Assembly: GCA_019359505.1 (NCBI GenBank)
Contig: JAHHHD010000039.1
Span: forward strand, 1 to 47,714
Origin: Drouetiella hepatica Uher 2000/2452
Lineage (GTDB): Bacteria; Cyanobacteriota; Cyanobacteriia; Elainellales; Elainellaceae
Length of the DNA stretch: 47,714 bases
Direction of reading: 5' to 3'
The notes under the pieces were generated by a model. The model ran no database searches. It was not told the DNA's origin and saw only the letters and a program-made list of their open reading frames with translations. The translations under genes were made by a program, and so were the position numbers. This document shows, one piece after another, positions 4,330 through 44,371 of the stretch (the first letter of the stretch is position 1; the number at the start of each line of letters is the position of its first letter).

Positions 4330-4462
4330 CTGAAAAGTGCAAATCGCTATCCGAGCCGCCCCCCAACCCCCCAATTCTGGGGGACTTTGAACGTAAACTT
4401 ACTCAAAAGTTCCCCAGAATTGGGGATTGGGGAGTGAATGCAGAACATTTGATACTTTTCAG
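4330..4462 (+). repeat. MITE-like element with CTGAAAAGT terminal repeats
   Basis: Ends CTGAAAAGTGCAAAT (4330-4344) and ATTTGATACTTTTCAG (4447-4462) are inverted repeats. Inside lies a GC-rich palindrome: CCCCCCAACCCCCCAATTCT, GGGGGACTTTGAA, then the complement CCCCAGAATTGGGG. The same core occurs in the differently ended element at 8294-8453. It sits directly after the 21-bp array and before the small NACHT-partner gene. Confidence 0.65.
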
Positions 4463-16286: not shown

Positions 16287-16469
16287 GGGGCGATCGAACA
16301 GATTGGGCAGGAGCTTAACCAAATTCTATCCGGGGATAGATTAAATCAGCCGATCCAGATGCCGATTAGTGCCACTGACACATTCGCATCTGCCACCTTC
16401 GAGAGGCGAGTTCGGTTACAACTCGATTTGGTAAAATTGCCATAGTTGCGATCGCATTTGGCAGTTCCC

Positions 16470-20468: not shown

Positions 20469-21551
20469 CTAGCCGTTGATGGCAGGAGCAGTGATAGCCA
20501 CAGGAGCCGCTTCACCCGCAGCCAAGTCCAACGGGAAGTTGTGAGCATTCCGCTCGTGCATCACTTCCATCCCCAAGTTCGCACGGTTCAAAATGTCTGC
20601 CCAGGTGGAGACCACGCGACCCTGCGAGTCGATGATGCTCTGGTTGAAGTTGAACCCGTTCAGGTTGAATGCCATTGTGCTGATGCCCAATGCCGTCATC
20701 CAGATACCCACCACTGGCCATGCACCCAACAAGAAGTGCAAGCTGCGGGAGTTGTTGAATGAGGCGTATTGGAAGATCAACCGACCGAAGTAGCCGTGAG
20801 CCGCAACGATGTTGTAGGTCTCTTCTTCTTGTCCAAACTTGTAGCCGTAGTTCTGCGATTCGGTCTCGGTGGTCTCACGCACTAGGGAGGAGGTGACCAA
20901 TGAACCGTGCATCGCACTGAACAACGCACCACCAAACACACCTGCTACGCCCAACATGTGGAAGGGGTGCATCAGGATGTTGTGCTCAGCTTGGAACACG
21001 AACATGAAGTTGAAGGTGCCGGAGATACCCAAAGGCATGCCGTCAGAGAAGGAACCTTGTCCGATCGGGTAGATCAGGAAAACTGCGGTTGCGGCTGCAA
21101 CAGGGGCAGAGTAAGCCACGCAGATCCAAGGACGCATACCCAGACGGTAGGAAAGTTCCCATTCACGTCCCATGTAGCAGAAGACGCCAATCAGGAAGTG
21201 GAAAACCACCAACTGGTAAGGGCCGCCGTTGTACAGCCACTCGTCGAGTGAAGCTGCTTCCCAGATGGGGTAGAAGTGCAAGCCGATCGCGTTGGAGGAA
21301 GGAACGACTGCACCGGAAATGATGTTGTTGCCGTACATCAAGGAACCGGCAACAGGCTCACGGATGCCGTCAATGTCGACAGGAGGCGCGGCGATGAAGG
21401 CGACGATGAAGCAGATGGTGGCGGAGATCAGGGTGGGGATCATCAGGACGCCGAACCAGCCGATGTAAAGGCGGTTGTCGGTGGAGGTGACCCACTCGCA
21501 GAAGCGTGACCAGAGGTCAGCGCTTTCGCGTCTTTGTACAGTAGTTGTCAT
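20469..21551 (-). CDS. psbA: Photosystem II reaction-centre protein D1, Glu130 (high-light) type
   Basis: A 360-residue D1 with all functional residues: Tyr161, Asp170, Glu189, His190, His198, and the C-terminal '[13 protein letters not shown]' carrying His332, Glu333, His337, Asp342 and the Ala344 processing site, followed by a 16-residue extension. Residue 130 is Glu ('YMGREWELS'), which in studied cyanobacteria marks the high-light/stress D1:2 isoform rather than the Gln130 form. It lies alone between a promoter with canonical spacing and a strong terminator. Other psbA copies are expected elsewhere. Confidence 0.98.
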
Positions 21552-29509: not shown

Positions 29510-32275
29510 ATGTCTACTCGTTCAAGCTTCAAGATTGTCAAAGATAGGCGTGATTACAATGCCTGGATCGCGGCAGAAACTCTAGAAGACTACGCCTTAA
29601 GGTTCGCTCCTAAGTCCTTCCGAAGATGGCCAGAGTGGTTGGTTGCCAGCACATCAATCGGGGGACTTTCCTTTCTGGCGTTGGAAGCGATCGGAGGATC
29701 TCTCGCAATCCGCTATGGATTTGCCAATTCTTTCTGGGCAATCATTGTCGTCGGCGTGATCATTTTCCTGACGGGACTACCGATCGCCTACTATGCTGCA
29801 AAATACAACGTTGACATTGATTTGCTGACGCGAGGTGCCGGATTTGGCTATCTGGGTTCCACCATCACGTCTTTAATCTACGCTTCATTTACCTTTATTT
29901 TCTTTGCGCTAGAAGCCGCCATCATGGCGCAAGCCCTAGAGCTGTACTTTCACCTGCCTCTGTATCTGGGCTATATCGTCTGCTCTTTAGTGATTATTCC
30001 GCTCGTATTTTTTGGCGTGACGCTGATCAATAAGCTTCAGCTTTGGACTCAGCCTATTTGGATCACGCTGATCGTGCTGCCCTACCTCTGCATTTTCTAC
30101 AAAGAGCCGGATGCTCTCACAAACTGGGTACAGTTTGCGGGTGAGACGGGTAGCGCTTCCTTCGATCCACTCCTCTTTGGTGCCGCCGCAACTACGTCTT
30201 TCTCCTTAATTGCCCAGATTGGAGAGCAGGTTGATTATCTGCGGTTTCTGCCGGATAAACAAGAAAGCAACAAGGGCAAATGGTGGCTAGCTCTAGTTTT
30301 AGCAGGGCCGGGTTGGGTGCTGATTGGCTGTGCCAAACAGTTAGGCGGCGCTTTTCTGGCATCCTTAGCGATCGCCCATGGCGTGAGTCTTGCGAAAGCC
30401 AACGAACCCACCCAAATGTATCTGGTGGGGTTTGAGTATGTCTTCTCAAATCCAGAGGTGGCGATGGCTGTAACGACTTTATTCGTGCTGGTTTCTCAAA
30501 TCAAAATTAATGTTACTAATGCCTATGCTGGGTCTCTGGCTTGGTCAAATTTCTTTTCTCGGCTAACCCGTAGCCATCCAGGGCGCGTGGTTTGGCTCGT
30601 ATTTAATGTGTTAATTGCCCTGCTGATGATGGAGCTGGGCGTATTCTCTACGTTAGAAGCTGTTTTGGGGCTGTACTCAAATGTGGCGATCGCCTGGGTC
30701 GGTGCCTTGGTTGCCGATTTGGTTGTCAATAAACCCTTGGGTCTTAGCCCTCCCTATATTGAGTTCAAGCGGGCGCATCTCTACAGTATTAATCCTGTCG
30801 GATTTGGCTCAATGCTGATCGCCTCGTTGGTGTCCATGGCGGCTTTTGTCGGTGCATTTGGGTCGGTCGCCAAAGCCTTTGCGGCATTCATTGCTTTAGG
30901 GCTATCTTTTGTGTTGGCTCCCGCGATCGCGGTGCTCACTAAAGGAAAATACTACATCGCTCGTGAAGATGACTATGCGGGTTATAATCATGCGGATCAC
31001 AATCACGCAATTTCCTGCTGCATCTGTGAGAAAGAATATGAGCCGCAAGATATGGCATTTTGTCCCATCTACAGCGACTCTATCTGTTCACTGTGTTGCA
31101 GCCTCGATTCTTGTTGCCACGACGCCTGTAAGATAACCCCTATTTCTGATAGCCAGCCCTCTATGCCAGAAATGGCACAAGTTTTTCAAGGACTTTTTCA
31201 GGAAAAGCTCTCCCCTAAGCTGGGTGCAAAGCTGCTAATCTATCTAGCACTTTTCTTGTCTTTATGCGGTCTACTCGGAGCCATCTTCGGATTTGTCTAC
31301 TACCAGAGAGTGGTGACTGCGTCTCTGCTGCCTGAGATCGCCACTCAGCAGATCACTTCAACTTTAGTAGAAGTGTATGCAATTCTCTCCGTCTTGATTG
31401 GCGTGGGAGCCTGGTGGCTCATACTCACTCAAGAGAGCCGTCAGCTCGCAGAAACTCAGCTCCAGGAAAAAGCACAACAGCTTGAACAAACTCTGCACAA
31501 TTTGCAGCAAGCAGAAGCCCAGCTGATTCAAACTGAAAAAATGGTGGCACTCGGTGGATTGGTAGCTGGGATCGCCCATGAGATTAATACCCCCATTGGC
31601 ATTGGAGTCACTGCCGCTTCGCTGCTGATGGAAAAAACGATCGCCTTCTCTGAGCGCTTCCAGAACGGTACAATGAAACGCTCAGAGTTAGAAAGATTTT
31701 TGGATATGGCTCAACAGAGCAGTCAGATGACGCTCTCTAACTTGGAGAGAGCCGCAGAGCTAATTCAGAGTTTTAAGCAGGTTGCAGTCGATCAATCTAG
31801 CGAATCAAAACGGCTGTTTAATTTCAAGACTTATTTAGAAGAAATCCTGCTGCAACTTAGCCCCAAACTTAAAGCCACAAAGCATAGTGTTGATGTGCAG
31901 GGCGATCCGCATCTGACTTTAAACAGCTATCCTGGCGCACTCTCTCAAATCGTCACAAACCTGGTGATGAACTCCCTCCTTCATGCTTATGAGTCAGAGG
32001 AGCAAGGGCATATTGCATTAACCTTTAACCAGACAGAAGAAAACGTCATTTTTGAGTATGCTGATGATGGCATTGGGATAATTTCAGAAAACCTAGGCAA
32101 GATATTTGAACCTTTTTTTACCACTAAACGCGGACAGGGGGGAAGTGGGCTAGGCTTACATATCGTCTACAATCTCGTGACTCGAAAACTAGGAGGAACA
32201 ATCCAATGCAAAAGCCAGCCTGGAAAAGGAACAACGTTTGTGATCAAATTACCCAATATTCAAAATCAAGCCTAA
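29510..32275 (+). CDS. NCS1-type permease fused to a sensor histidine kinase
   Basis: A 921-residue fusion. Residues about 30-480 form a 12-helix nucleobase:cation symporter-1 (purine/cytosine/allantoin permease) domain ('YALRFAPKSFRRWPEWLVAS', 'GGLSFLALEAIGGSLAIRYG', 'KINVTNAYAGSLAWSNFFSR'). Residues about 503-540 are a Cys/His-rich segment (C-C-x-x-C...C-x-x-C-C...C-C-H-x-x-C) suited to a metal or redox centre. Two further helices (about 578-600, 622-645) lead to a coiled coil and the kinase: H-box 'AGIAHEINTP' with His690, N-box 'NLVMNSLLHA', G1 'YADDGIGI', F-box 'FEPFFTTK', G2 'GGSGLGLHIV'. It could transport and sense a small nitrogen compound. It lies 71 bp before its likely response regulator. 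Confidence 0.9.
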   Translation: MSTRSSFKIVKDRRDYNAWIAAETLEDYALRFAPKSFRRWPEWLVASTSIGGLSFLALEAIGGSLAIRYGFANSFWAIIVVGVIIFLTGLPIAYYAAKYNVDIDLLTRGAGFGYLGSTITSLIYASFTFIFFALEAAIMAQALELYFHLPLYLGYIVCSLVIIPLVFFGVTLINKLQLWTQPIWITLIVLPYLCIFYKEPDALTNWVQFAGETGSASFDPLLFGAAATTSFSLIAQIGEQVDYLRFLPDKQESNKGKWWLALVLAGPGWVLIGCAKQLGGAFLASLAIAHGVSLAKANEPTQMYLVGFEYVFSNPEVAMAVTTLFVLVSQIKINVTNAYAGSLAWSNFFSRLTRSHPGRVVWLVFNVLIALLMMELGVFSTLEAVLGLYSNVAIAWVGALVADLVVNKPLGLSPPYIEFKRAHLYSINPVGFGSMLIASLVSMAAFVGAFGSVAKAFAAFIALGLSFVLAPAIAVLTKGKYYIAREDDYAGYNHADHNHAISCCICEKEYEPQDMAFCPIYSDSICSLCCSLDSCCHDACKITPISDSQPSMPEMAQVFQGLFQEKLSPKLGAKLLIYLALFLSLCGLLGAIFGFVYYQRVVTASLLPEIATQQITSTLVEVYAILSVLIGVGAWWLILTQESRQLAETQLQEKAQQLEQTLHNLQQAEAQLIQTEKMVALGGLVAGIAHEINTPIGIGVTAASLLMEKTIAFSERFQNGTMKRSELERFLDMAQQSSQMTLSNLERAAELIQSFKQVAVDQSSESKRLFNFKTYLEEILLQLSPKLKATKHSVDVQGDPHLTLNSYPGALSQIVTNLVMNSLLHAYESEEQGHIALTFNQTEENVIFEYADDGIGIISENLGKIFEPFFTTKRGQGGSGLGLHIVYNLVTRKLGGTIQCKSQPGKGTTFVIKLPNIQNQA

Positions 32276-32346: not shown

Positions 32347-33561
32347 ATGTCAAGCAGTACACAAGATGTTTTTTCTGATGCTCAAAATGATAAATCCATT
32401 TTCACTCAAGAAAGTGAAGAAATCTCTTTTGCAGACGAAACAGAGACTAGCCAACCTGCCAAAAGCTGGAAAATACTAATTGTAGATGATGATATTGAAG
32501 TCCATAAAGTGACTGAGTTAGCGCTGAGCGATTTCACATTTGAGGAAAAATCACTCAGTTTCATTAGCGCTTACTCTGCCCAAGAAGCCAAACACTTGAT
32601 TCAAGCCCATGCTGACATCGCCATTATTTTTTTAGATGTGGTGATGGAGACAGAGACGGCAGGCTTACAGGTGATCAAATATGTTCGAGAGGAGCTAGGA
32701 AACCTACTCGTCAGAATTATTCTACGAACTGGGCAACCTGGTCAGGCTCCTGAGAATGTTGTCGTGGTGAACTACGGCATTGATGATTACAAGACAAAGA
32801 CCGAGTTGACCGCTCAAAAACTGTTCATTACAGTCATCACGGCTCTAAGAGCATTTTCTACCCTGATGCAAATGCTGGAAATGAGCCAAGCCCTAAAGCT
32901 AGAGCTAATTCACTACAAACAAGTGGAGACAAATTTACAGAGCAGTGAGATTTTGCAGGGCAAGCAAAACCCAAAATCGCTCAAAGCCGGACTGTTGGAG
33001 CGATCGCTCCAAGTGTTTCAGCAGGATTCACAGCAATTTGGGCAACATGAAAAAATAGAGGTTTTAGGTCAATTAGTTACAGAAATTACCCATGGAGTTG
33101 TCCAGGAGCCGAATCAATCGTGTGCGGTTTACACCATGTCAATCATCGCCCGCATCGCCCGTATGGTGCTGCGAATTACCGACGAACATTCTGCCAAATT
33201 AGGCATCTCACAAAGTAAATTAGCGGTTTTACTCTACCTCAGCAGCGAGTCTGAACCGGGTGCAAGTCCATCGTCGATCGCCAAACACTGTGGCGTTTCC
33301 CGCGCAGCCATGACGGGATTACTAGACGGATTAGAGCAAGATGGCTACGTTGAGCGCGACGATCATCCATCCGATCGACGGGCTTTGAGGATCAAAATGA
33401 CTCAAAAAGGTCAGCAATTCTTAGATTGGATTGCACCCCAAGATCAGTATTGGATGTCTGAGGTGATGGATTCTCTAGACGAAGCTGAGCGCAGGAAGCT
33501 GATTGATCTGGTAGTTCGGGTGATTAAGCTATTCGATAAAACGGTAGCCCCTGACCCGTAA
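32347..33561 (+). CDS. Response regulator: receiver domain fused to a MarR-type DNA-binding domain
   Basis: 404 residues. The receiver at about 40-190 has the acidic cluster Asp47-49, phosphoacceptor Asp97 ('IIFLDVVMETE') and the 'RTGQPGQAPE' segment typical of the DUF3369-associated receivers. A helical linker (190-255) follows. The winged-helix MarR domain at about 258-400 contains 'ISQSKLAVLLYLSSE', 'PSSIAKHCGVSRAAMTGLLD' as recognition helix region, and wing 'VERDDHPSDRRALRIKMTQKG'. Receiver-MarR fusion is uncommon; MarR proteins usually sense ligands directly. It is probably phosphorylated by the adjacent permease-kinase and controls the amidase/hydratase genes. Confidence 0.88.
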   Translation: MSSSTQDVFSDAQNDKSIFTQESEEISFADETETSQPAKSWKILIVDDDIEVHKVTELALSDFTFEEKSLSFISAYSAQEAKHLIQAHADIAIIFLDVVMETETAGLQVIKYVREELGNLLVRIILRTGQPGQAPENVVVVNYGIDDYKTKTELTAQKLFITVITALRAFSTLMQMLEMSQALKLELIHYKQVETNLQSSEILQGKQNPKSLKAGLLERSLQVFQQDSQQFGQHEKIEVLGQLVTEITHGVVQEPNQSCAVYTMSIIARIARMVLRITDEHSAKLGISQSKLAVLLYLSSESEPGASPSSIAKHCGVSRAAMTGLLDGLEQDGYVERDDHPSDRRALRIKMTQKGQQFLDWIAPQDQYWMSEVMDSLDEAERRKLIDLVVRVIKLFDKTVAPDP

Positions 33562-33734: not shown

Positions 33735-33776
33735 GTAAGTCCTGATACAAACTCTCTTTTCCCTACTCTCTATTAT
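33735..33776 (+). promoter_or_regulatory. NtcA-activated class II promoter for the amidase/hydratase operon
   Basis: GTA-AGTCCTGA-TAC at 33735-33748 matches the NtcA consensus GTAN8TAC exactly. After 22 bp comes TATTAT at 33771-33776, matching TAN3T. This is the canonical layout of NtcA-activated promoters, where the box replaces the -35. Transcription should start near 33783, giving a leader of about 200 nt before amiE. Confidence 0.75.
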
Positions 33777-33986
33777 TCACTCATGCAGCCAAAGGCTTAG
33801 AAGCGATTCTGCCATTGGCGTGAGCTTGAAAGACAAGAATTTAGTTAATTCAGCGCGATCGACGGTCGGAATGGTTCGGAGTCGTCAAAAAGATTCACTC
33901 AGGTGATGTCATTAGGGTCAGTTCCCTGATTTCAGAGAAGTTTTGATCAGCTATCAGACAGTACATAATATTTATTGGAGGTTGCA

Positions 33987-35066
33987 ATGTCTTATCACGG
34001 CGATATTTCGTCTAGCGATGATGCAGTGGGAGTTGCGGTTGTTAACTACAAAATGCCGCGTCTTCACACGAAGGAAGAGGTGATTGAGAACTGTAAAAAG
34101 ATCTCTACGATGATTGATGGAATGAAAGTTGGATTACCGGGAATGGACTTGGTGATCTTTCCAGAGTATTCCACACATGGCATTATGTACGATGCCAAGG
34201 AAATGATGGAGAATGCAGCAACAATTCCTGGTGCGGAAACCGAAATCTTTGCTGAAGCCTGCATCCGGAACAAGGTCTGGGGTGTTTTTTCACTCACGGG
34301 CGAGAAGCATGAAGATCATCCCAACAAAGTGCCCTACAACACTTTGATCCTGATGAACGATCAGGGTGAAATTGTTCAAAAGTACCGCAAGATTATGCCT
34401 TGGACACCCATTGAAGGATGGTATCCCGGCAACTGCACCTATGTCTCAGATGGCCCCAAGGGATTGAAGATCAGCCTGATCATTTGTGATGACGGCAACT
34501 ATCCTGAAATCTGGCGTGATTGTGCCATGCGGGGAGCTGAGCTGATCATTCGCTGCCAAGGCTACATGTACCCTGCGAAAGAGCAGCAGGTTCTTGTCTC
34601 TAAAGCGATGGCATGGATGAATAATATCTATGTAGCCGTTGCCAATGCCGCAGGGTTTGACGGCGTTTACAGCTACTTTGGACACTCGGCGGTGATTGGC
34701 TTCGACGGTCGTACCCTGGGTGAGTGTGGCGAAGAAGAGAATGGAATTCAGTACGCAGCCTTGTCTAAGTTTGCCATTCGAGATTTCCGCAAGAACTCTC
34801 AATCTCAGAACCATCTGTTCAAGCTACTGCATCGGGGATATACCGGGATGCTCAACTCGGGTGATGGCTCTGAAGGTATGGCGGAATGTCCTTACCAGTT
34901 CTATCGTGACTGGGTTCTCGATCCGAAGAAAGTTAAGGAAAAAGTGGAGTCACTGACGCGTCCTACCGTCGGCACCGAAGAATGTCCGATCGAGGGTTTA
35001 CCCACACAGAAAATTAACGCCCCAGTTGAAAAGGCTAAGTCAGCAGCAGTTTCAGTCACGGTCTAA
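33987..35066 (+). CDS. amiE: Aliphatic amidase (acylamide amidohydrolase)
   Basis: 359 residues from the ATG at 33987, preceded by GGAGG. Very close in pattern to Pseudomonas aeruginosa AmiE along its whole length ('[20 protein letters not shown]', '[20 protein letters not shown]', '[13 protein letters not shown]'-like). The nitrilase-superfamily triad is Glu60, Lys135, Cys167 ('[15 protein letters not shown]'). It hydrolyses short amides such as acetamide to acid and ammonia, in the cytosol. First gene of the putative nitrile-degradation operon; the next gene starts 30 bp downstream. In the nitrile pathway it would consume the hydratase product. Confidence 0.95.
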
Positions 35067-35096
35067 GGCTCTGCCTAACTAAAGAGGAAATTGACT

Positions 35097-36638
35097 ATGG
35101 TTGATCCACAAGAAGCGCTTCGGATCAGGAAGCGATTAGAGGCGCTCAAGCGGGGAGGAGTTCACCGCGTTAAGGATAAAGATCCAATGCCCTCTGCTGT
35201 GCATGTTGTCGGCGTGGGTAAGGCGGGGGCTGATTTCATTGCCCAGATGATTCAGCAAGCTCCAGATGATTTTTTGACGGATAGCCGCACCCGATTTACA
35301 GCTCTGGCAGTAGATATTGGTGATCAGAATTTGCTCCAGGTGCGAGAACTAGCTGAGACCTTGCCCAGTGATCGCGCCCAGGTCAGAACCTTGGCTTTAG
35401 AAGTGCCTAGTCGGGATGAACTCTTTGGCTCACTCCGGCGATACCGCGAGTACCTGAAGTTAGAATATCCTCGATACTACTGGAATCCTAATTACGAACC
35501 CTGGTTGCCGGACACTATCGAGATTCCTAATGCAGGAGAATATTTTCCTCGGGCGATCGCCAAAGCTATCTACGGTAAGGCTTATTACGAGGGCGATCGG
35601 TTGATGGATCAGGAGCTACAAACGTTCGCTGAGAGCGTGGATGCTGCAACCTGTCAGTCGATCGTTTGTGTGGTTTTCGCCTTGGGAGATGGTACCGGAA
35701 GCGGTATCGTGGTTGATCTAGCGCGGCATCTGTCTAACGTGAAGTTTGGACGCAGAGCCTTGGTGCTCGGTATTGGCATCGCGCCTTGTGACGGTGATCC
35801 GGCTCACGAGCGCGATGGTAGCCTCTTCCCCACGCTCAATGAACTGGACTGTATGTTGGATCAGGACAAAAACCAGGGTGTCATTCAGGTTTGGGGCGAC
35901 CTGTATCGCAACCCATTCACGGCTGGATTCCTCATGGTTTCTCAGAAGTCAGTTTGGCAAGAAACGGGTGATTTGGCGGCAACCCAGCAGAAAGTGAACG
36001 GTCAATTAATATCCTTTTTCACCCGCAATCAGGGGCTAGATGTCTATGAGACGCTGCGACTTCTGAACTGGGTGGGTGCGCCACCCTCGCAGCACATGGC
36101 GGCACGTAGCCAGTATGGGGCACGTTGGGCACACCTATTTGGATTTACCAATTTTGAATCCTCCATTGATGACTTGCCTAGCAAACTCGGCATCATGGCA
36201 GGCACCTTTAACCCGGACTTTTTTGAAATCCGCGTTTCAGCTCCAGAAGGCGCTGCTCTAGGTGAAAAACTTGCTGATTTGGCGAGCAAGATGAACAAGT
36301 CTTTCTCTCCAATATTGGAGCCAGAGATCATCTATTCTCCGGGCGGTAGCGAAACCTACGTGCAGTTTGTCATCCCAGGGGCGCGCAAGACGAATCTAGA
36401 TATTTTCTATGACGCTCGACTCGCCTATGACGAACAAACCTGGGACGAAAAGCTGCTTCAGCATTCCTGGCTGCTAGAGCTAGGGGTGATGCTGTCGGAG
36501 CCAGCTATCCGGTTTGAGGGCATGGCGGGTGAATGTCTCTGGGGTTGTGCTTGCTGGGTTGTGGTGCCCTATAGCGACATTCGGGGAGAGGATCTGGAGG
36601 GCTTGAGACAAAAGCTCGAAGAAGTTGTCAAAACGTAG
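35097..36638 (+). CDS. anhA: Acetonitrile hydratase-like subunit A; tubulin/FtsZ-like signature
   Basis: 513 residues from the ATG at 35097 (AGAGGAAA upstream). Gene order (amidase, ~55-kDa protein, 108-aa protein, ~62-kDa paralogue) fits the cobalt-dependent acetonitrile hydratase of Rhodococcus RHA1 as I recall it; the name rests on this context. In the sequence itself, 'HVVGVGKAGADFIAQMI' at 37-52 and 'FTALAVDIGDQNLL' at 67-80 mimic the first nucleotide-binding loops of FtsZ, and 'GDGTGSG' at 197-203 is the tubulin signature loop with one Gly changed to Asp. 'GECLWGCACW' at 478-487 gives a CxxxCxC motif that could bind metal. It shares about half of its sequence with the gene at 37110. An alternative is a tubulin-like GTPase of unknown role. 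Confidence 0.65.
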   Translation: MVDPQEALRIRKRLEALKRGGVHRVKDKDPMPSAVHVVGVGKAGADFIAQMIQQAPDDFLTDSRTRFTALAVDIGDQNLLQVRELAETLPSDRAQVRTLALEVPSRDELFGSLRRYREYLKLEYPRYYWNPNYEPWLPDTIEIPNAGEYFPRAIAKAIYGKAYYEGDRLMDQELQTFAESVDAATCQSIVCVVFALGDGTGSGIVVDLARHLSNVKFGRRALVLGIGIAPCDGDPAHERDGSLFPTLNELDCMLDQDKNQGVIQVWGDLYRNPFTAGFLMVSQKSVWQETGDLAATQQKVNGQLISFFTRNQGLDVYETLRLLNWVGAPPSQHMAARSQYGARWAHLFGFTNFESSIDDLPSKLGIMAGTFNPDFFEIRVSAPEGAALGEKLADLASKMNKSFSPILEPEIIYSPGGSETYVQFVIPGARKTNLDIFYDARLAYDEQTWDEKLLQHSWLLELGVMLSEPAIRFEGMAGECLWGCACWVVVPYSDIRGEDLEGLRQKLEEVVKT

Positions 36639-36650
36639 GGAGGGGACGGT

Positions 36651-36977
36651 ATGCCATTGGATTGGGCTTTGGTGAACCAGAAGTACGGCAACGGTGCTGA
36701 GGTTCCGACCGTAGCGGGTAACAAGATACTTCAGATCACCGGAGTTGATGATGAAAGAATCTACATTAAATCTCCACTTTGGAAGGCGAGTCTAAGCCGT
36801 TCAAACATCGAGAAAGGGGTTGAACTGATCGAGGAAGGCGTGATCGATCGCCAGCCCGGTCAATTCGTTGAAGATTACAAGGTTTACGTTGCGGATGAAC
36901 GCGCCACCTCGGTTGCCCACATTCTCAAGGATTTAGGGTTTTTAACTGAAGATTTAGGCTACTACCCAACCTGTTGA
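36651..36977 (+). CDS. anhE: Small AnhE-like protein, candidate cobalt chaperone between hydratase subunits
   Basis: A 108-residue (about 12 kDa) soluble protein, 12 bp after anhA and preceded by GGGAGGGG. Its N-terminus is 'MPLDWALVNQKYGNGAEVPT', then a beta-rich stretch ('KILQITGVDDERIYIKSP'), helix 'SNIEKGVELIEEGVI' and 'ATSVAHILKDLGFL', ending in a terminal Cys. Rhodococcus AnhE is described as an 11-kDa cobalt-binding maturation factor encoded between anhA and anhB; size and position match. No strong metal motif is visible (one His, one Cys, several acidic residues), so the name is mainly by context. Confidence 0.6.
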   Translation: MPLDWALVNQKYGNGAEVPTVAGNKILQITGVDDERIYIKSPLWKASLSRSNIEKGVELIEEGVIDRQPGQFVEDYKVYVADERATSVAHILKDLGFLTEDLGYYPTC

Positions 36978-37109
36978 CTTCGCACTCGTTGAGGTTATGT
37001 ATTCAGTTCGGGATTAAACGTTCCATTCATTGCTTTCACCACACTGAGCCGCGCACCTGCGGCGATCGCGATTTACTAAATCACAACCTACCAAAAAGGA
37101 AGCTGATCA

Positions 37110-38786
37110 ATGTCAAAATCCATGTATCACAGTGCTTCAGGTTCTCAGTCTCCCCACTGCATCCATTTCTTGGGTATCGGCAAGACTGGGGCAAATATGC
37201 TGGATTCCATGCTGCGCCAAGGCGATTTAGAAGATCAGCTAGCGGATCCCCGTGCTCGGTTCACCGCGCTGCTGGTGGACATTGGTGAACAGGATATGTA
37301 CCAGGCAAAGGACTATGCTGAAGGGTTCCTGAAGCGGCTGGAAGAGAGTGGCATTCCGCCGGAGCGCGCTCAGATTCGGTTTGCTGCGTTAGAAGTCCCT
37401 ACTCGTGACGAGTTGTTCACCTCCTTACGCCGCTATCGTGAATTTCTGAAGCTGGAGTATCCTCGCTACTACTGGAACCCCAACTACGAACCCTGGCTGC
37501 CTGACAATGTGGAAATCCCCAAGGCAGGCGAGTATTTCCCCAGAGCAATCTCCAAAGCAATCTATGGCAAGGCATACTACGACGGCGATCGCCCCCTTGA
37601 GAAAGAGCTGGATGATTTCGCTAAGAGCATCGATGCCACGAAACTGCCCTCCATGGTGCTGTGCTGCTTTGCGATCGGGGATGGCACAGGCAGCGGTATC
37701 GTGGTTGACTTGGCGCGCCATCTGGCTAACGTCAAGCTTGGACGACGCATTCCGGTAATTGGAGTCGGTCAATTGCCCTGCAGCGGCGATCCAGAGACGC
37801 ATCAGGACGGCAGTTTCTTCGCCACAATGAACGAAATTGACTGCATGCTAGATGACGATAAGAATGCGGGTGTGACCACGGTTTGGGGCGACCTCTACCG
37901 CAATCCTTTTACAGGCGGATTCTTTGCGCTGGCGACCGAAAATTCCTACCAGCGCTTGAGCAAATACACCTCAACGGGTGTGCCTACTGAGCGCGATCGG
38001 ATGCGTTTGCAAGTCACCCACAAGTTCGTCGCTGATGCCTTCATGCGGATTGCACTGGATGATTACGGTCGCACGATCTTCAAGGCACTGCGCTTGGTTG
38101 GACAAACCACTGCGCCCCACGAGGCGATCAGCACCAAAGCTCGTAGCTGGACGCTATACGATGTTGCTAAGTTTACTCACCCTGCAGTGCAGGTATTGCC
38201 CGGTGAACCCCTCAGCAAGTGGCGCAGTGTAATCACCGAGTGGATCGGTCACATCCCTGATTATGCCGGGTTAAAACCAGGATTCAAGACTGATTACGCC
38301 GAGTGCATTATCCATGCACCCCGCGAAATGTGGAATGACAAACTGGATGATGAATTTAAGAAAGTGATGGCAACGTTCCTAGTAGAGTCGGAAGATTCTG
38401 CGATCAACATCAGCCACCGCGAGTTCTTTGATCACCTGACCGCCTTTGCTGACATTATGCTGCCGGGAGTTGCGAAGGTAGATTTCATTGATTTCTACAA
38501 GAGCCGTGACCTGTATGATACCCTCACCTGGGATCAAAAGCTGCTGCACCACTCTTGGCTAATGGATCTGGGCGTGATGATGTCTGAGCCAGCGATTCGC
38601 TTTGAAGGGATGGCAGGAGAATGTCTCTGGGGCTGTGCTTGCTGGATTGTAGTTCCCTACGACCAGCTCCGGGGCGATGATGTTGTACCTACTAACCGCC
38701 GGGACATTCTAGAAGCAGGAATTGCGGCGATGACCAAAACGGTTGTCTCTATTCCATCGGATGCGGAGGCTGTGAAAGCAATCTAG
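37110..38786 (+). CDS. anhB: Acetonitrile hydratase-like subunit B; tubulin/FtsZ-like signature
   Basis: A 558-residue paralogue of the gene at 35097. Shared blocks: 'FLGIGKTGANMLDSML' at 20-35, 'FTALLVDIGEQDMYQ' at 51-65, a near-identical 'LKLEYPRYYWNPNYEPWLPD', 'GDGTGSGIVVDLARHLANVK' at 190-209, and the C-terminal 'GECLWGCACW' with CxxxCxC at 505-511. It differs by a larger central region (about 280-440) and a 30-residue tail. It probably forms a heteromer with AnhA. A GGA-type ribosome site precedes the ATG at 37110; 132 bp separate it from anhE. The enzymatic role is inferred from the cluster, not from known active-site residues. Confidence 0.65.
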   Translation: MSKSMYHSASGSQSPHCIHFLGIGKTGANMLDSMLRQGDLEDQLADPRARFTALLVDIGEQDMYQAKDYAEGFLKRLEESGIPPERAQIRFAALEVPTRDELFTSLRRYREFLKLEYPRYYWNPNYEPWLPDNVEIPKAGEYFPRAISKAIYGKAYYDGDRPLEKELDDFAKSIDATKLPSMVLCCFAIGDGTGSGIVVDLARHLANVKLGRRIPVIGVGQLPCSGDPETHQDGSFFATMNEIDCMLDDDKNAGVTTVWGDLYRNPFTGGFFALATENSYQRLSKYTSTGVPTERDRMRLQVTHKFVADAFMRIALDDYGRTIFKALRLVGQTTAPHEAISTKARSWTLYDVAKFTHPAVQVLPGEPLSKWRSVITEWIGHIPDYAGLKPGFKTDYAECIIHAPREMWNDKLDDEFKKVMATFLVESEDSAINISHREFFDHLTAFADIMLPGVAKVDFIDFYKSRDLYDTLTWDQKLLHHSWLMDLGVMMSEPAIRFEGMAGECLWGCACWIVVPYDQLRGDDVVPTNRRDILEAGIAAMTKTVVSIPSDAEAVKAI

Positions 38787-38861: not shown

Positions 38862-38897
38862 ATCATGTTTGAGATTGGGGCGAATACAGAACATGAT
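38862..38897. promoter_or_regulatory. Inverted repeat ATCATGTT-N20-AACATGAT upstream of the CobW gene
   Basis: Perfect 8-bp arms at 38862-38869 and 38890-38897, 42 bp before the cobW ATG. It could be an operator for a metal-responsive regulator or a leader hairpin; it does not match a consensus I know. Confidence 0.3.
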
Positions 38898-38938
38898 TGC
38901 AGTTCAATGAGCTAATTGCTTTATCAGGAGTTACAACG

Positions 38939-39937
38939 ATGGTCATGCAACAGGTTCGCCAGGGAAGCCTTAAGCAACGAGTTCCAGTTACCGTGATCAC
39001 TGGATTTTTAGGGTCGGGCAAAACGACGCTAATCAACCATATTTTGAAGGGGCAGCATGGTCTAAAGGTGGCTGTGATTGTCAATGAGTTTGGTGAGATT
39101 GGCATTGATGGTCAGTTGATGATTTCCGATGATGAAGAGCAGCTCGTAGAATTCAACAATGGTTGCCTCTGCTGCACTGTTCGAGGGGATCTCGTTCGCA
39201 CCCTAGAGGACTTAACGCAGCGAGCTGAATTAGATGCTGTTCTAGTAGAAACAACAGGACTTGCAGATCCTGCTCCAGTAGCTTCGACGTTCATTGTTGC
39301 CGATGAAATCAAGTCAAAATTCAACCTCGACGCATTTGTTACCGTAGTCGATGCGCCTAATTTACAGCGTAATTTAGTCGATAGTCATGAAGCCCAAGAG
39401 CAGGTTGCGTTTGCTGACATCATTTTGATTAACAAAACCGATCTTGTTTCACCGGAAGCGATCGTCAAAATTGAGCAACAGATCCGAGGACTCAATCCAA
39501 TCGCCAAAATCTACCACACAGAATTCAGCGTAGTTGATCTGCCGCTGATTCTGGGAACTGGCTCTTTTGATCTGGAAGCTAAGCTAGAGGTAGATCCTCT
39601 GTTCCTGGACGATCTGGAGCATGAGCATGATGCGGCGATCGGCTCGTTTGCGCTGACTACGAACAAACCCATTGACATGAACAAATTTATGCTGTGGATG
39701 AATGCTCTAGCGCAGGAAAAAGGAGAAGATCTATACCGGACAAAAGGCTTGTTCTATGCTCAGGGATTCCCGGAGCGCGTGGTGTTTCAGAGCGTGAGAA
39801 TGCTGACCTCTATGCGACGAGACAGACTGTGGAAACCCGATGAAGAGAAACTAACGCAGCTCGTTGTGATTGGTCGAGATCTCAATCGAGACGAGTTTAC
39901 GGAAGGGTTTGAGAAATGTATTGTGTCTGGGAAATAG
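38939..39937 (+). CDS. CobW/COG0523-family metallochaperone GTPase
   Basis: 332 residues from the ATG at 38939 (AGGAG upstream; frame open to 38897). Walker A 'GFLGSGKTT' at 22-30, 'VNEFGEIGIDG' switch, the metal-binding 'GCLCC' at 75-79, 'ETTGLADPAPV' and 'NKTDL' (G4). The C-terminal CobW domain has only a short His cluster ('LEHEHD'). Members deliver zinc or cobalt to client proteins; nitrile hydratase activators and CobW of B12 synthesis belong here. Its position between the hydratase-like operon and the cobalt importer suggests cobalt delivery, but zinc cannot be excluded. Confidence 0.92.
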   Translation: MVMQQVRQGSLKQRVPVTVITGFLGSGKTTLINHILKGQHGLKVAVIVNEFGEIGIDGQLMISDDEEQLVEFNNGCLCCTVRGDLVRTLEDLTQRAELDAVLVETTGLADPAPVASTFIVADEIKSKFNLDAFVTVVDAPNLQRNLVDSHEAQEQVAFADIILINKTDLVSPEAIVKIEQQIRGLNPIAKIYHTEFSVVDLPLILGTGSFDLEAKLEVDPLFLDDLEHEHDAAIGSFALTTNKPIDMNKFMLWMNALAQEKGEDLYRTKGLFYAQGFPERVVFQSVRMLTSMRRDRLWKPDEEKLTQLVVIGRDLNRDEFTEGFEKCIVSGK

Positions 39938-40347: not shown

Positions 40348-40534
40348 TGGTATTCTGAGTCCACGACTCGGTTCTGACGGGGAGCAGCCGTCAGAGGAAA
40401 CAGGGAAAGTGTAGTGCGATTCTACCGCTGTCCCGCAACTGTAAGAGAGAGTTTGAGTTTTAAGTTAGTCAACACAATTACAAAATTCAAAGCTTAAGCT
40501 TCAAAGCTCTCTAGAGCCAGAATGCCTGCCAGTC
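40348..40534 (+). ncRNA. Cobalamin riboswitch controlling cbiM
   Basis: The order of conserved pieces is clear: a stem closing around 40350-40385, 'GCCGTCAGAGGAAACAGGGA' region at 40386-40407 (the GGAAxxxGG core), 'CCGCTGTCCCGCAACTGTAA' at 40426-40444, a variable stem, and the B12 box AGCCAGAATGCCTGCCAG at 40515-40532. It ends 33 bp before the cbiM start, so adenosylcobalamin binding would shut off cobalt import. Confidence 0.9.
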
Positions 40535-40567
40535 GCAAACAACATCGTCTTATCTGCGAGGTACAGC

Positions 40568-41323
40568 ATGAAGACACGATATCGGAAATGGCTAAGCCTA
40601 GGAGTGATGGCTAGCCTGAGTTGCTATATTTTGCTTGGATCAGCTACGCCTGCTTATGCCATGCACATCGCGGAAGGATTTTTGCCTGTGCGGTGGGCAG
40701 CTTTTTGGTGGGCTGTGTCGCTGCCGTTTTTTTGGGTGGGGCTGAGATCGCTAACTCGCATCACTAAGCAGAAGCCTGAGTTGAAGCTCTTGCTGGCATT
40801 AGCAGGCGCCTTCACCTTTGTGCTGTCAGCTCTAAAAATCCCTTCGGTCACAGGCAGTTGCTCTCATCCAACCGGAACGGGATTGGGTGCGGTTTTATTT
40901 GGGCCTTCCGTCATGTCTGTTTTGGGTGGATTAGTGTTGCTGTTCCAAGCTGTTTTACTGGCGCATGGGGGTTTGACAACGCTGGGTGCAAACATGTTCT
41001 CAATGGCGATCGTCGGGCCTTTCGTAGCTTACGGCGTTTATCATTTGATGCTGCGCATCGGCAATCAATCTGTTGCAATCTTTTTAGCCGCAACATTGTC
41101 AGATTTTGTTACCTACTTGACTACGGCTGCGCAGCTTGCCTTTGCATTTCCAGCCCTACAGGGCGGATTCTTGGCATCGTTCTCTAAGTTTGTAGGGATT
41201 TTTGCGGTTACCCAACTGCCCCTAGCCCTTTGTGAAGGGCTGTTGACCGTGCTGGTTTGGAACTGGCTGCAAAAGCATGGCCAGCAGGAATTGCAAACGC
41301 TCAAAGTTCTTGAGGAGCAGTAG
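40568..41323 (+). CDS. cbiM: Cobalt ECF transporter S component CbiM
   Basis: 251 residues. A cleavable signal peptide (1-31, ending Ala-Tyr-Ala) exposes the mature N-terminus Met-His-Ile-Ala-Glu-Gly, whose Met and His form the N-terminal metal-binding site in CbiM/NikM. Six to seven membrane helices follow, with '[20 protein letters not shown]' and '[15 protein letters not shown]'-type motifs. It imports Co2+ for B12 synthesis and possibly for the nearby hydratase. Under riboswitch control. Confidence 0.95.
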
Positions 41324-41326: not shown

Positions 41327-41623
41327 ATGTCTAAGGTATCGAGTAACTGGCTGTTGATTGGGGGAGTCCTCGTTTTAGCACTTGGGCCTTTACTTATGCT
41401 TCAAGGTACAGAGTTTGGCTCAACTGACGGCAGCTTTACAACCGCAATTGAGGCAGATCATCCGAATTACAAGCCCTGGTTTGAACCCGTGATCAAAGAC
41501 TCTGGGCCTGAAGTACAAGCCTTTTTGTTTGCTGCTCAAGCTGGGATTGGTGCAGGAGTAGTAGGGTACATTCTAGGATTGTACAAGGGGCGATCGGAGA
41601 GACACGAGAGGGATGAGCATTGA
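41327..41623 (+). CDS. cbiN: Cobalt ECF transporter auxiliary protein CbiN
   Basis: 98 residues with two membrane helices (about 7-25 and 65-85) and the periplasmic loop 'GTEFGSTDGSFTTAIEAD' then 'YKPWFEP', the part that supports metal loading of CbiM. It starts 3 bp after cbiM and overlaps the next gene. Confidence 0.93.
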   Translation: MSKVSSNWLLIGGVLVLALGPLLMLQGTEFGSTDGSFTTAIEADHPNYKPWFEPVIKDSGPEVQAFLFAAQAGIGAGVVGYILGLYKGRSERHERDEH

Positions 41624-42036
41624 ACCAACAGCACGTCATGTTCGTTTGTACAAGCTGTGAGAGTGCCCACCGCACCAAACAGGCGATTCGCACCAGCGGC
41701 GGTGAGCGGCTTCTCAGGCAGTTACAGGCTCTCCATGAAAGCGAATCGTTAGACGCATTTTCAATTCAACCGACAGAATGCTTAGGAGCCTGTGAGCAAA
41801 ATTGCGCGATCGCTCTTAGTGCTTCTGGAAAGCACACCTACTTGTTTGGTAACTTGCCTGTAGATGACGAGCATTTAGAATCAACCGCTGCAGCTGTCAT
41901 GGCGGGTGCTGTGCAATATCACGCTAAGCCAGACGGTACGCTCTCCTACATCAAATGTCCTGAGCTATTGAAAAAGAACGTGTTGGCAAAGATTCCGCCT
42001 CTGCCAGAAAGTCGTTCTAACATCGCAGGAGCGTAA
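41620..42036 (+). CDS. DUF1636 ferredoxin-like metal-binding protein
   Basis: 138 residues from a TTG at 41620 overlapping the cbiN stop, or 132 from the ATG at 41638. Cysteines are arranged as in thioredoxin-like 2Fe-2S ferredoxins: 'CTSC' near the N-terminus and 'CLGACEQNC' in the middle. The DUF1636 family is repeatedly found with cobalt-uptake and B12 genes and may act as an Fe-S or metal chaperone; its role is not established. It sits inside the cbiMNQO operon. Confidence 0.8.
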   Translation: MNQQHVMFVCTSCESAHRTKQAIRTSGGERLLRQLQALHESESLDAFSIQPTECLGACEQNCAIALSASGKHTYLFGNLPVDDEHLESTAAAVMAGAVQYHAKPDGTLSYIKCPELLKKNVLAKIPPLPESRSNIAGA

Positions 42037-42040: not shown

Positions 42041-42847
42041 ATGTCGTCGCTGCAAATTGATACCTTGGCATACAGCAGTCGGCTGCGACAATTGCCGCCC
42101 GAACATAAGCTGCTATTTGCGATCGCTCTGCTGCTGATCACCTATGCCGCTGATGCTCCAGTGCAGCTTCTCGTTGCAGTTTGGCTCAGCATTTGGACGG
42201 TAGTTTATGCTGGCATTCCGACCTCCGTTTATTTCCGTTTGCTCTCGATTACCACTGCATTTTGGCTCACTAGCCTGCCTGCTTTGATGGTTAATGAGAT
42301 CGACTTATCTGTTCTACCCTCTGTACAGACAGATGTTTTTCAGGGGTTCACCTGGGAAAACTACTACATTTATCTGAGCCATCGCGGAATACAGCAAGCA
42401 GGAGAATTAGGGGCAAGAGCGATCGCCTCAACTTCCTGTATTTATTTTGTTATTTTAACCGTTCCCTTCACTGAGATTTTGAATGTTCTCCGACGTATCG
42501 GCTGTCCAGAGCTGCTCGTTGAGTTGATGATGTTGATGTATCGTTTCATCTTTGTCCTTTTACAGACCGCAAACCAGATCTGGACTGCCCAACAGTCTCG
42601 CGGGGGCTACCGCACCCGTAAACTCTGGCTCAAGAGTTTAGGACTCTTGATCGGGCAGTTGCTCCGGCGCACCTTAGAAAACTATCGTCAGGTTTCGCTC
42701 ACCCTCACCTCGCGGGGTTTTACAGGAAACTTTCGCGTCTGTCACTCGCGTCAATATCGATCGTCTAGGCGATATAGCTTTGAAGCGCTGTTGGGCTGTG
42801 CAATATTACTGATACTCACGGGATGGAACTATGCTATTAGAATTTGA
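42041..42847 (+). CDS. cbiQ: Cobalt ECF transporter transmembrane component CbiQ
   Basis: 268 residues, about five membrane helices, and the EcfT coupling motifs: 'QQSRGGYRTRKLWLKSLG' (first A-R-G-like) and 'LTSRGFTGNFRV' (second), which contact the ATPase. It overlaps cbiO by 17 bp, indicating translational coupling. Confidence 0.93.
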   Translation: MSSLQIDTLAYSSRLRQLPPEHKLLFAIALLLITYAADAPVQLLVAVWLSIWTVVYAGIPTSVYFRLLSITTAFWLTSLPALMVNEIDLSVLPSVQTDVFQGFTWENYYIYLSHRGIQQAGELGARAIASTSCIYFVILTVPFTEILNVLRRIGCPELLVELMMLMYRFIFVLLQTANQIWTAQQSRGGYRTRKLWLKSLGLLIGQLLRRTLENYRQVSLTLTSRGFTGNFRVCHSRQYRSSRRYSFEALLGCAILLILTGWNYAIRI

Positions 42848-43685
42848 GAAAGTCGATTACACCTATCCCAGCAGCCCTCAGCCTGCTCTCCAGAGCCTAA
42901 CGCTACGCATCCCTCAGGGAAAACGCTGTGCGCTGTTGGGACATAATGGCTGCGGCAAAACGACGCTGTTTCTCTTGGCGAACGGTCTATACAAACCTCA
43001 AGGCGGTGCAGTGCATTGGCAAGGTTCACCCCTGCGCTACGATCGAAACTCCCTGATGGATTTGCGACAAAAGGTGGGACTGGTGTTTCAAGACCCGGAG
43101 CAGCAGTTGGTCGCGTCTACAGTCGAAGAAGATATTTCCTATGGGCTGTGCAACCTGGGTTTATCAGATTCAGAAGTGAATCAGCGCGTAGGTCAAGCTA
43201 TTACCGCGTTTAATCTATCTGAGCTAGCCACACGTCCAGTACATCACCTGAGTCTGGGGCAAAAGAAACGGGTGTCTCTGGCAGATGTGATGGTACTCCA
43301 GCCGGAGCTGTTGCTTCTTGATGAACCTACTGCCTATCTCGATCAGCTTCAGACCCGCGATCTGATGACAAAGCTGCGGCAGATTCAAGCCACAGGCACC
43401 ACAATCGTCATGGCAACCCATGATCTAGACCTGGCATATTGCTGGGCAGACTGGATTTTTATTCTCAACCAGGGACAACTGATTCTGGAAGGAACGCCTC
43501 AAGATGTATTTGCTCAACGGGAAATCCTAGAGCAACTTCATTTGGGAGTTCCTTTAGTCTTTGATGTGCTAGACAAGGTTGCAGAGGCATTGTCCAATAA
43601 TTCTGAGCAAGCTGATTATCAGGTGATGGGTAATATTCCGGAACCTCTGCGAAACCGAATTTTGGATGTGTTTAGGTATAGCTAA
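42831..43685 (+). CDS. cbiO: Cobalt ECF transporter ATPase CbiO
   Basis: A 284-residue ABC ATPase: Walker A 'GHNGCGKTTL', Q-loop 'VFQDPEQQLVASTVEEDISY', signature 'LSLGQKKRVSLA', Walker B 'ELLLLDEPTAYLD', H-loop 'MATHDLDLAY'. The last gene of the riboswitch-controlled operon. The ~110 bp after it show no clear terminator. Confidence 0.95.
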   Translation: MLLEFEKVDYTYPSSPQPALQSLTLRIPQGKRCALLGHNGCGKTTLFLLANGLYKPQGGAVHWQGSPLRYDRNSLMDLRQKVGLVFQDPEQQLVASTVEEDISYGLCNLGLSDSEVNQRVGQAITAFNLSELATRPVHHLSLGQKKRVSLADVMVLQPELLLLDEPTAYLDQLQTRDLMTKLRQIQATGTTIVMATHDLDLAYCWADWIFILNQGQLILEGTPQDVFAQREILEQLHLGVPLVFDVLDKVAEALSNNSEQADYQVMGNIPEPLRNRILDVFRYS

Positions 43686-43796: not shown

Positions 43797-44371
43797 ATGA
43801 ATCAACAATTAATGAACAAGGAGTTGCACAATATTGTTTTTCTGGAAGGCGAAAAAGCTGCGCTGCAAGCGGATGTGGCTTGGAAGGGTGGTTGGTACGA
43901 CGAACCACCCACAACTGGGCTGCGGGCTGTGGGGCGAGTCTACGCGGGCTGGGGACTGCTCAGGCATGTTACCGGGGGAAAGTTTACTTGCAACAGGGAT
44001 AATCATCACTCGAAGATTTTCTCGTGGAGTTTTGGGAGGGACTTTTTCTCAAGAAAGATGCCAATAATTTACTGACCACGCTGTGGACTCGGCAAAACGG
44101 CAATATCGGTAATACTCCCGGCTTTGAGGGCAATTTTGAGAAAGCGCTGAGTGCAATCAAAGCAAAAGCAATCGTCATGCCTGCTGAAATGGATCTTTAT
44201 TTCCCGCCTGAGGACAACGAGTATGAAGTGAAGTTCATGCCAAATGCTGAATTTCGCTTCATCAAATTTCGCGTCATCAAGTCAGTTTGGGGACATTTTG
44301 CAGGTGAGGGTGTCAATTTAGTTGATACCCAGTTTATTGATGAGAGTCTCAAGGAATTGCTTGCGCGTTAG
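43797..44371 (+). pseudogene. Truncated and frameshifted alpha/beta hydrolase (MetX/homoserine acetyltransferase-like)
   Basis: Only the C-terminal half of the family is present and it needs three reading-frame pieces: 'VFLEGEKAALQADVAWKGGW' and 'YDEPPTTGLRAVGRVYAGWG' up to about 43955; then 'VYLQQG', a TAA and 'SSLEDFLVEFWEGLFL'; then 'KKDANNLLTTLWTRQNGNIG', 'AIKAKAIVMPAEMDLYFPPE' to the end with the C-terminal 'WGHFAGEG' (catalytic His). The nucleophile-Ser half is missing. Clearly non-functional. Confidence 0.8.

Follow-up and report, generated by a model that had tools for sequence, protein, structure and literature searches.

The stretch of DNA analysed here (the window) comprises the 47,714 nucleotides of contig JAHHHD010000039.1 from the cyanobacterium Drouetiella hepatica Uher 2000/2452, whose genome measures 6.4 Mb. 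All coordinates are positions in this window. Its plus strand carries four genes, amiE, anhA, anhE and anhB, that resemble the acetonitrile hydratase locus of Rhodococcus jostii RHA1 and the aliphatic amidase gene adjoining it. The two larger proteins, AnhA and AnhB, are predicted to share the fold of tubulin and FtsZ, and both carry a C-terminal cysteine motif that we propose as a metal site.

A preliminary description of this DNA had proposed an amiE-anhA-anhE-anhB cluster starting at 33735. The four genes are indeed present on the plus strand, all open and with conserved residues in place, and the last three encode proteins of 513, 108 and 558 residues as it stated. The amidase triad Glu60-Lys135-Cys167 was computed at the positions given there, counting from the ATG at 33987 (an alternative in-frame TTG lies at 33975). 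The two large proteins are related, as had been noticed, with 47% identity over 518 columns. The left boundary has to be moved, for the amidase gene begins only some 250 bases after 33735 and the frame read from there contains stops. The features of the cluster are as follows.

33987..35066, plus strand: amiE, aliphatic amidase of 359 residues (NF009802, PDB 2plq, RHA1 amidase, catalytic triad)
35097..36638, plus strand: anhA, hydratase alpha-type subunit of 513 residues when started at the ATG at 35097, predicted tubulin fold (RHA1 WP_011600030)
35445..35504, plus strand: AnhA loop region R-x-10-YYWNPNYEPW, residues 117-136 (R117, Y128, N132, E134), co-conserved with the cysteine motif
36534..36554, plus strand: AnhA Cys480-LWG-Cys484-Ala-Cys486, proposed cobalt claw (alignments)
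36651..36977, plus strand: anhE, cobalt metallochaperone-type protein of 108 residues (similarity to RHA1 AnhE)
37110..38786, plus strand: anhB, hydratase beta-type subunit of 558 residues, paralogue of AnhA (RHA1 WP_011600032)
37437..37496, plus strand: AnhB region R...YYWNPNYEPW, residues 110-129 (Y121, N125), co-conserved with the cysteine motif
38622..38642, plus strand: AnhB Cys505-LWG-Cys509-Ala-Cys511, second proposed cobalt claw (alignments; absent from RHA1 AnhB)

Relationship to the RHA1 acetonitrile hydratase

AmiE passes the NCBIfam equivalog model for aliphatic amidase (NF009802) with 711.3 bits against a cut-off of 427, compared with only 270 bits for formamidase, and matches PDB entry 2plq at 1.9e-192. 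A tblastn search of 72,556 plasmid records with AnhA gave matches in 15 records, 12 of them from Rhodococcus. The RHA1 match is located on pRHL2 (NC_008270), together with an aliphatic amidase, a 99-residue protein and a 568-residue protein. In pairwise comparisons with RHA1, the window amidase is 71% identical (E 0.0), AnhA is 48% identical to WP_011600030 over 488 columns (5e-166), AnhE is 45% identical to the small protein over 98 residues (2e-35) and AnhB is 52% identical to WP_011600032 over 564 columns (0.0). The comparison of the 513-, 108- and 558-residue proteins with pRHL2 therefore yields strong similarity in all three cases, with the order kept and the amidase upstream.

At 11,093 Da by calculation and with only one histidine, the small pRHL2 protein fits AnhE, which is reportedly an 11.1 kDa protein with a sole histidine. 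These properties, the adjoining aliphatic amidase and the alpha-AnhE-beta gene order described for RHA1 (PMC3511329, PMC7193024) lead us to regard the pRHL2 genes as the probable anhA-anhE-anhB; in the open-access literature searched, we did not find this locus named as anh genes. The RHA1 enzyme is described as hydrating small aliphatic nitriles and as requiring AnhE (PMC3511329, PMC3680314), RHA1 as using acetonitrile, acrylonitrile, propionitrile and butyronitrile (PMC6941271), and Co, Cu and Zn as metals reported for the enzyme (PMC7193024). Because of the homology and gene order, the properties of the small protein and the published order, substrates and metals, the reading of the preliminary description, a cluster of the acetonitrile hydratase type accompanied by a fitting amidase, holds; the description was silent on the tubulin superfamily and on the candidate metal motif.

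Judged by sequence, the cluster falls within the known acetonitrile hydratase family, in a form with two cysteine claws and in a photosynthetic host. At the level of homology, its function is very probably that of a nitrile hydratase with an amidase. As the chief natural substrate, acetonitrile or propionitrile seems the better guess. AnhE itself gave no match in Pfam or NCBIfam at E values up to 1 and none to a PDB sequence better than 0.57; its structural model is of middling confidence (predicted local distance difference test score, pLDDT, of 80) and a fold search of the PDB with it gave nothing better than E 0.5.

A predicted tubulin fold in both subunits

AnhA and AnhB both contain the signature GDGTGSG. 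The Pfam Tubulin model (PF00091) matches AnhA at 3.6e-7 (31.1 bits) and AnhB at 2e-4 (22.1 bits), in both cases below the curated cut-off of 33, and on these scores the two proteins are divergent relatives rather than standard PF00091 members. An AlphaFold model of AnhA, computed from 83 rows of A and B proteins (A and B denoting relatives of AnhA and AnhB), has a mean pLDDT of 92.3 and a predicted template-modelling score of 0.93. With this model Foldseek retrieved 908 chains at E <= 0.001, the best being FtsZ1 (9v7v, 1.5e-10). VIA-align superposed model residues 33-449 on CetZ1 with a Z score of 23.4 (310 residues, 4.2 Å), and residues 31-498 on most tubulins and on BtubA with Z of about 21 (about 340-350 residues, 3.4-3.9 Å); identity over the aligned part was 9-16% among the 50 matches listed. 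A sequence search of the PDB with AnhA gave at best 0.68, for an Asgard tubulin. The fold of AnhB is deduced from its identity to the modelled AnhA. Going by the model, both subunits almost certainly belong to the tubulin/FtsZ superfamily and have the tubulin fold.

Glycine-rich T1 and T4 loops are found in most rows of the alignments (56 A and 55 B rows) and are better retained in B than in A. In the loop that follows the long core helix, placed by secondary structure only, 55 of the 56 A rows lack an acid at 326-330, which suggests that A may have lost the ability to hydrolyse GTP in the manner of FtsZ. AnhB has an invariant Glu338 slightly beyond this loop.

Other assignments were tried and rejected. 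A classical nitrile hydratase was rejected because no nitrile hydratase Pfam family matched A or B at E values up to 1; a search of the host genome with PF02979 gave no match, but was uninformative as 14 control genomes gave none either. The lytic transglycosylase MltF, tried for A, scored 12 bits in NCBIfam, where 354 are required. Nothing points to a phage origin: searches of PHROGs with AnhA, AnhE and AnhB gave no hit at E values up to 0.01.

Distribution of the cluster

Two short peptide patterns were used to scan 84,980 named genomes, a procedure that gives a lower bound, and at least 69 loci were obtained (L001-L003, L078 and L080 in our numbering are the window itself and L079 is a stray weak match). 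Six loci are cyanobacterial: Oculatella LEGE 06141, CCP2, a Chamaesiphon metagenome-assembled genome, Vasconcelosia minhoensis and the metagenome-assembled genomes SM2_3_1 and CRU_2_3. Pseudomonadota and Actinomycetota account for most of the others; a few come from Bacillota, and eight archaeal loci (L070-L077) are the most distant of the confirmed matches.

The cluster occurs in 4 of 36 genomes of the host's order. Among 386 genomes sampled across the phylum two matched, only the host convincingly; the other (G047) shows one short stretch at 5e-5. The window proteins share 86% (A) and 92% (B) identity with the Oculatella copies. In a quick tree the cyanobacterial A rows form one group (99% support in the Shimodaira-Hasegawa-like approximate likelihood ratio test) and the B rows do likewise (100%). 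Distribution and tree groupings together point to a patchy accessory cluster that has probably been resident in cyanobacteria for some time. In L020 and in G390 (a congener), perhaps the same organism, anhA lies in three frames or pieces beside an intact anhB, which may reflect sequencing errors or decay.

Many Pseudonocardiales-type loci encode two or three AnhE-like proteins, one group of which has extra cysteines (examples are L025, L028, L034, L046, L049, L051, L053, L056 and L057; L018 and L038 have two). They are possibly chaperones for different subunits or metals.

A C-terminal cysteine claw as candidate metal site

When aligned with the proteins of RHA1, BAA-870 and Agrobacterium, both window subunits display a C-terminal GEC(L/I)(W/L)GCACW motif (CxxxCxC), here called the claw, which is restricted to A in the two Rhodococcus strains (RHA1 and BAA-870) and to B in Agrobacterium. 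Its core C-LWG-CAC occurs in 41 of the 56 A rows and in 45 of the 55 B rows. Among 54 aligned A/B pairs, the claw is found in both subunits in 30, in A only in 10, in B only in 14 and never in neither, so that the partner of every claw-less subunit retains the three cysteines. Recounting with L006 (A only) and L031, L032 and L050 (both) gives 58 complete pairs, the window and L038 included, with the claw in both subunits in 33, in A only in 11, in B only in 14 and in neither in 0. Incomplete loci were set aside (L007, L013, L020, L041, L042, L047 and L067-L069); among these, the claw is seen in B as well as in an incomplete A of L041, L042 and L047, in A of L013 and in both subunits of L020. 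Two further genomes of the host's order outside the 58 pairs, G412 and G393, also carry it in both subunits. The claw was sought in the eight archaeal loci and found in none.

Trees of the 56 A and 55 B rows were built with the motif columns removed. The fewest changes of claw state are one in A, comprising 15 rows from Pseudomonadota, and two in B, comprising 8 rows of the Nocardiaceae type and 2 of Bacillota. Since the motif is common to A and B, these changes are taken as losses rather than gains. Claw-less copies have varied residues at the cysteine sites (SGQ, GSN, PAG, ASG and others), so that constraint there seems to be gone.

The loss of the claw is accompanied by changes elsewhere in the protein. 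At 97 homologous positions of these 56 A and 55 B rows, conservation is at least 90% in claw-bearing A and B; at 14 of them it is no higher than 40% once the claw is missing, in A as in B. These 14 lie in four segments: R117/Y128/N132/E134, V265, W449/K452/L453 and E479-V489, the last including the three cysteines. N132, for instance, is altered in 14 of 15 claw-less A rows and in 10 of 10 claw-less B rows. As these distant segments are lost together in separate lineages, we read them as parts of one common active site.

From this conservation pattern, we consider the claw a likely catalytic cobalt site. Because both window subunits carry it, two active sites per heterodimer are predicted against one, in AnhA, for RHA1; we lean towards the presence of two sites in the host enzyme without pressing the point. 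In RHA1 the cobalt presumably resides in AnhA, in agreement with the claw occurring in that subunit only.

Cobalt, amide and regulatory genes around the cluster

The preliminary description had also pointed to nearby cobalt genes, and these were recovered as a CobW-type GTPase, CbiM, CbiN, CbiQ, an ABC ATPase in the CbiO position and a cobalamin riboswitch. Together with a kinase pair upstream, they are listed below.

29510..32275, plus strand: sensor histidine kinase whose N-terminal half is long and hydrophobic (HATPase_c 3.4e-25)
32347..33561, plus strand: response regulator and MarR protein, probable partner of the kinase (MarR 2e-11, Response_reg 3.8e-7)
38897..39937, plus strand: CobW-family GTPase, likely to assist metal delivery, with a further in-frame ATG at 38939 (PF02492 1.9e-59, CobW_C 1.4e-21)
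40351..40547, plus strand: cobalamin riboswitch upstream of cbiM (RF00174, 50.5 bits, gathering threshold 31.5)
40568..41323, plus strand: cbiM, cobalt importer component (TIGR00123, 294.7 bits)
41327..41623, plus strand: cbiN (PF02553 5.9e-18)
41620..42036, plus strand: DUF1636 protein with weak similarity to thioredoxin-like 2Fe-2S ferredoxins (PF07845 9.3e-35)
42041..42847, plus strand: cbiQ (PF02361 1e-39)
42831..43685, plus strand: ABC ATPase in the cbiO position (PF00005 2.1e-33)

Relatives of the neighbouring genes were counted at 60 bits or more in 63 loci, using queries from the window, L004, L005 and L006; L004 and L005 thus count themselves, and L006 (the RHA1-type cluster on another Rhodococcus plasmid) and L007 (a fragment) were left out. 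In these counts, which vary with flank length, CobW relatives occur in 28 loci, AmiE in 39, AmiC-like binding proteins in 39 (a figure that may include urea-type binding proteins), CbtA/B in 10, nickel/cobalt-type transporters in 10, CbiM in 8, MoxR in 12, VWA proteins in 10 and the DUF1636 protein in 3. A CobW or cobalt/nickel transporter relative is found in 46 of the 63 loci and an AmiE or AmiC-like relative in 49. The same relatives were sought in the eight archaeal Tubulin_2-like loci and none was found. Next to the Agrobacterium copy, a binding protein matches AmiC (1pea, 2.4e-85) and the following protein has AmiR_N and ANTAR domains, which makes amide sensing likely there.

The kinase and the response regulator-MarR protein form a candidate sensor pair for nitriles or amides and a possible regulator of the cluster. 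In L009, L010 and L012 relatives of both precede the cluster, and none was seen in L011; searches of the PDB and Pfam with the N-terminal half of the kinase gave no match. As the importer has its own cobalamin riboswitch, its use is perhaps shared or centred on B12.

Some loci encode a third tubulin-like protein of about 380-460 residues lacking the cysteine motif (L005:14554-15702, L007, L016, L017, L052, L061 and L063-L065). These loci also have MoxR and mostly VWA genes; a further example, in L019, has no MoxR or VWA match. The protein perhaps takes part in cobalt insertion.

Downstream of the importer, a MetX-like alpha/beta hydrolase is split across two overlapping open reading frames (43797-44371, NF005757 fragments) and is probably a pseudogene; a relative lies between amiE and anhA in L010. 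Elsewhere in the window we noticed a photosystem II D1-type gene, recognised by eye (20469-21551, minus strand), a NACHT-domain protein with long GLIGGLI-type repeats (5044-7608) near an open reading frame with RFSGEVL repeats (4039-4437), and a protein with a TIR domain and TPR (13539-16322, minus strand), possibly a defence gene.

Discussion

We propose that AnhA and AnhB would pair as subunits of a heterodimeric nitrile hydratase belonging to the family of the RHA1 acetonitrile hydratase, in which the tubulin/FtsZ fold of both subunits would be reused as an enzyme scaffold. The C-terminal CxxxCxC loop would bind one cobalt, probably Co(III), through three thiolates and backbone amides, an arrangement akin to that of the unrelated classical nitrile hydratases, and the Arg/Tyr/Asn/Glu loop (R117, Y128, N132 and E134 in AnhA) would line the pocket of the claw together with W449 and K452. 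The claw metal would activate water or the nitrile to give the amide, which AmiE would cleave to acid and ammonia in a second step. Cobalt would be taken up by the Cbi importer and delivered by AnhE, perhaps with help from the CobW GTPase. With a claw in each subunit, the heterodimer would have two active sites, and RHA1 one, in AnhA. Small aliphatic nitriles would supply the host with ammonia, plus acetate or a similar acid. A nitrile-to-ammonia pathway of this kind, with a heterodimeric tubulin-fold cobalt hydratase, claw site, two active sites and amidase, appears probable as a whole. We find it reasonably probable, with somewhat less assurance, that these proteins represent a tubulin-fold metalloenzyme family whose claw arose independently of classical nitrile hydratases, the cyanobacterial form having two sites and one-site forms having arisen by three losses.

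Several other explanations have to be set beside this pathway. The family and pathway could be as proposed, with the CxxxCxC motif binding Zn or Cu in a structural capacity, or serving redox chemistry or assembly, and cobalt catalysis elsewhere, for example at core histidines or cysteines; the three metals reported for the RHA1 enzyme (PMC7193024) would suit this. So would the conservation of His23, His211, His333 and His456 in 98-100% of the 56 A rows, and of Cys252 in 86%. However, loss of the motif is accompanied in both paralogues by loss of the distant Tyr/Asn/Glu loop, which fits an active site better, and the RHA1 motif occurs only in AnhA, which we take to be the cobalt-bearing subunit; we therefore judge a structural site distinctly unlikely. 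The hydratase might instead be homologous but act on another substrate, such as cyanide, an isonitrile or a nitrile that is larger or naturally occurring; AmiE would then cleave the corresponding amide. The sequence does not speak directly to the substrate, identity to RHA1 is 45-52%, and cyanobacteria are not known for using acetonitrile. The amidase nevertheless is of the short-chain aliphatic type, close to that of RHA1 and far better matched by the aliphatic amidase model than by formamidase, and amide regulators of the AmiC and AmiR types turn up repeatedly in related loci. Another substrate is thus unlikely, although of these alternatives it is the one that we take most seriously.

It seems highly improbable that A and B are FtsZ-like cytoskeletal or membrane-remodelling GTPases whose link to nitriles is accidental. 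The predicted fold and the glycine-rich T1 and T4 loops would agree with such a role, as would the MoxR/VWA genes and the third tubulin-like protein of some proteobacterial loci, and Makarova and Koonin proposed one for FtsZl1 (PMC2875224). On the other hand, the RHA1 enzyme has been characterised as a nitrile hydratase (PMC3511329, PMC6941271), nearly all A rows lack the acid at 326-330, amidase and cobalt genes adjoin the cluster, and MoxR/VWA pairs also insert metals in other systems, as in NorQD (PMC13036017). A cluster decaying or silent in this host is likewise very unlikely: its patchy occurrence within order and phylum, the fragmented A gene of L020 and G390 and the split MetX-like gene downstream would fit decay, whereas the four open window genes, their conserved residues and their closeness to the Oculatella copies argue against it.

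The proposed cobalt pathway, with its tubulin-fold hydratase, also has observations against it. The Pfam tubulin scores of AnhA and AnhB are below the curated cut-offs, Foldseek template-modelling scores normalised by query length are just 0.34-0.49 among the 50 matches listed, and a profile of the A and B proteins aligns with the host FtsZ at the signature loop alone, over 28 columns. The absence of pairs that have lost both claws depends on three independent changes in quick trees and, with only three state changes, no useful probability can be attached to it; L068, whose A is claw-less and whose B is cut by the contig end, is a potential exception. The trees do not separate gain of the claw from its loss, and the activity and metal of each claw variant are predictions from sequence. 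The claw might hold Zn or Cu, both reported besides Co for the RHA1 enzyme (PMC7193024), and the Cbi importer may serve B12 rather than the hydratase. Finally, 17 of the 63 loci, some of them short contigs, have no CobW or cobalt/nickel transporter relative at 60 bits.

Relatives of tubulin and FtsZ are known as filament-forming GTPases; here the fold apparently makes both halves of a metabolic metalloenzyme. The RHA1 enzyme was characterised years ago, and in the open-access literature searched we found no connection made between the tubulin fold and nitrile hydratase. NCBI has already recorded the similarity as such, annotating RHA1 AnhA and BAA-870 AnhB as 'tubulin-like doman-containing protein'. 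The question of where the cobalt sits and how this second kind of nitrile hydratase works can now be addressed at named residues, for which A-only, B-only and two-claw forms provide natural controls; the copies of Hansschlegelia plantiphila (L059) and Rhizobacter (L052) are of the B-only type. If the proposal is true, the cobalt cysteine claw had a second, independent origin, nitrogen from nitriles is open to some cyanobacteria, and more enzymes become available for industrial amide production. Classical nitrile hydratases have been reported from cyanobacteria (PMC2603476, PMC7193024); no description of a cyanobacterial acetonitrile hydratase or of a two-claw form was found in the same literature.

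Among known systems, the tubulin/FtsZ superfamily (CetZ, FtsZ, BtubA/B) shares the predicted fold and the GTP-loop signature, whereas the window proteins differ by their C-terminal cysteine motif, an apparent lack of recognisable T7 acids and their metabolic and metal neighbours. FtsZl1/Tubulin_2 (PF13809) and FtsZl2 are divergent prokaryotic tubulin relatives with VWA partners in some loci, belonging to the FtsZ-like families described by Makarova and Koonin (PMC2875224), a paper whose main text does not contain the words nitrile, cobalt, amidase or Rhodococcus; Tubulin_2 proteins are also described as divergent and sparsely distributed (PMC9871819). Against the Tubulin_2 cut-off of 27 bits, AnhA scores 15.5 and AnhB has no match, whereas L070 and L074, the two archaeal loci tested, pass. 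A and B proteins have about 490-580 residues, compared with 877-902 for six of the eight archaeal frames (the other two have 529 and 563).

Classical cobalt or iron nitrile hydratases and thiocyanate hydrolase share the reaction proposed here and have a C-x-C claw with an extra upstream cysteine. The classical claw is CTLCSC (CxxCxC), located in the alpha subunit of an enzyme with a different fold. In contrast, the window motif is spaced CxxxCxC, the gene order is alpha-chaperone-beta and the sequences do not match; given this likeness with a spacing off by one residue, we call the claw convergent as a hypothesis.

The closest system remains pRHL2 of RHA1 (WP_011600029 to WP_011600032), with the same four genes in one order and, downstream, a gene annotated as 'nickel transporter'. 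The window differs from it in having the claw in both subunits, whereas in RHA1 it is in AnhA only, and in an AnhA without the His-rich N-terminus of the RHA1 protein. It is also accompanied by CobW, the Cbi importer and the kinase/MarR pair, where RHA1 has a substrate-binding protein and a MarR protein.

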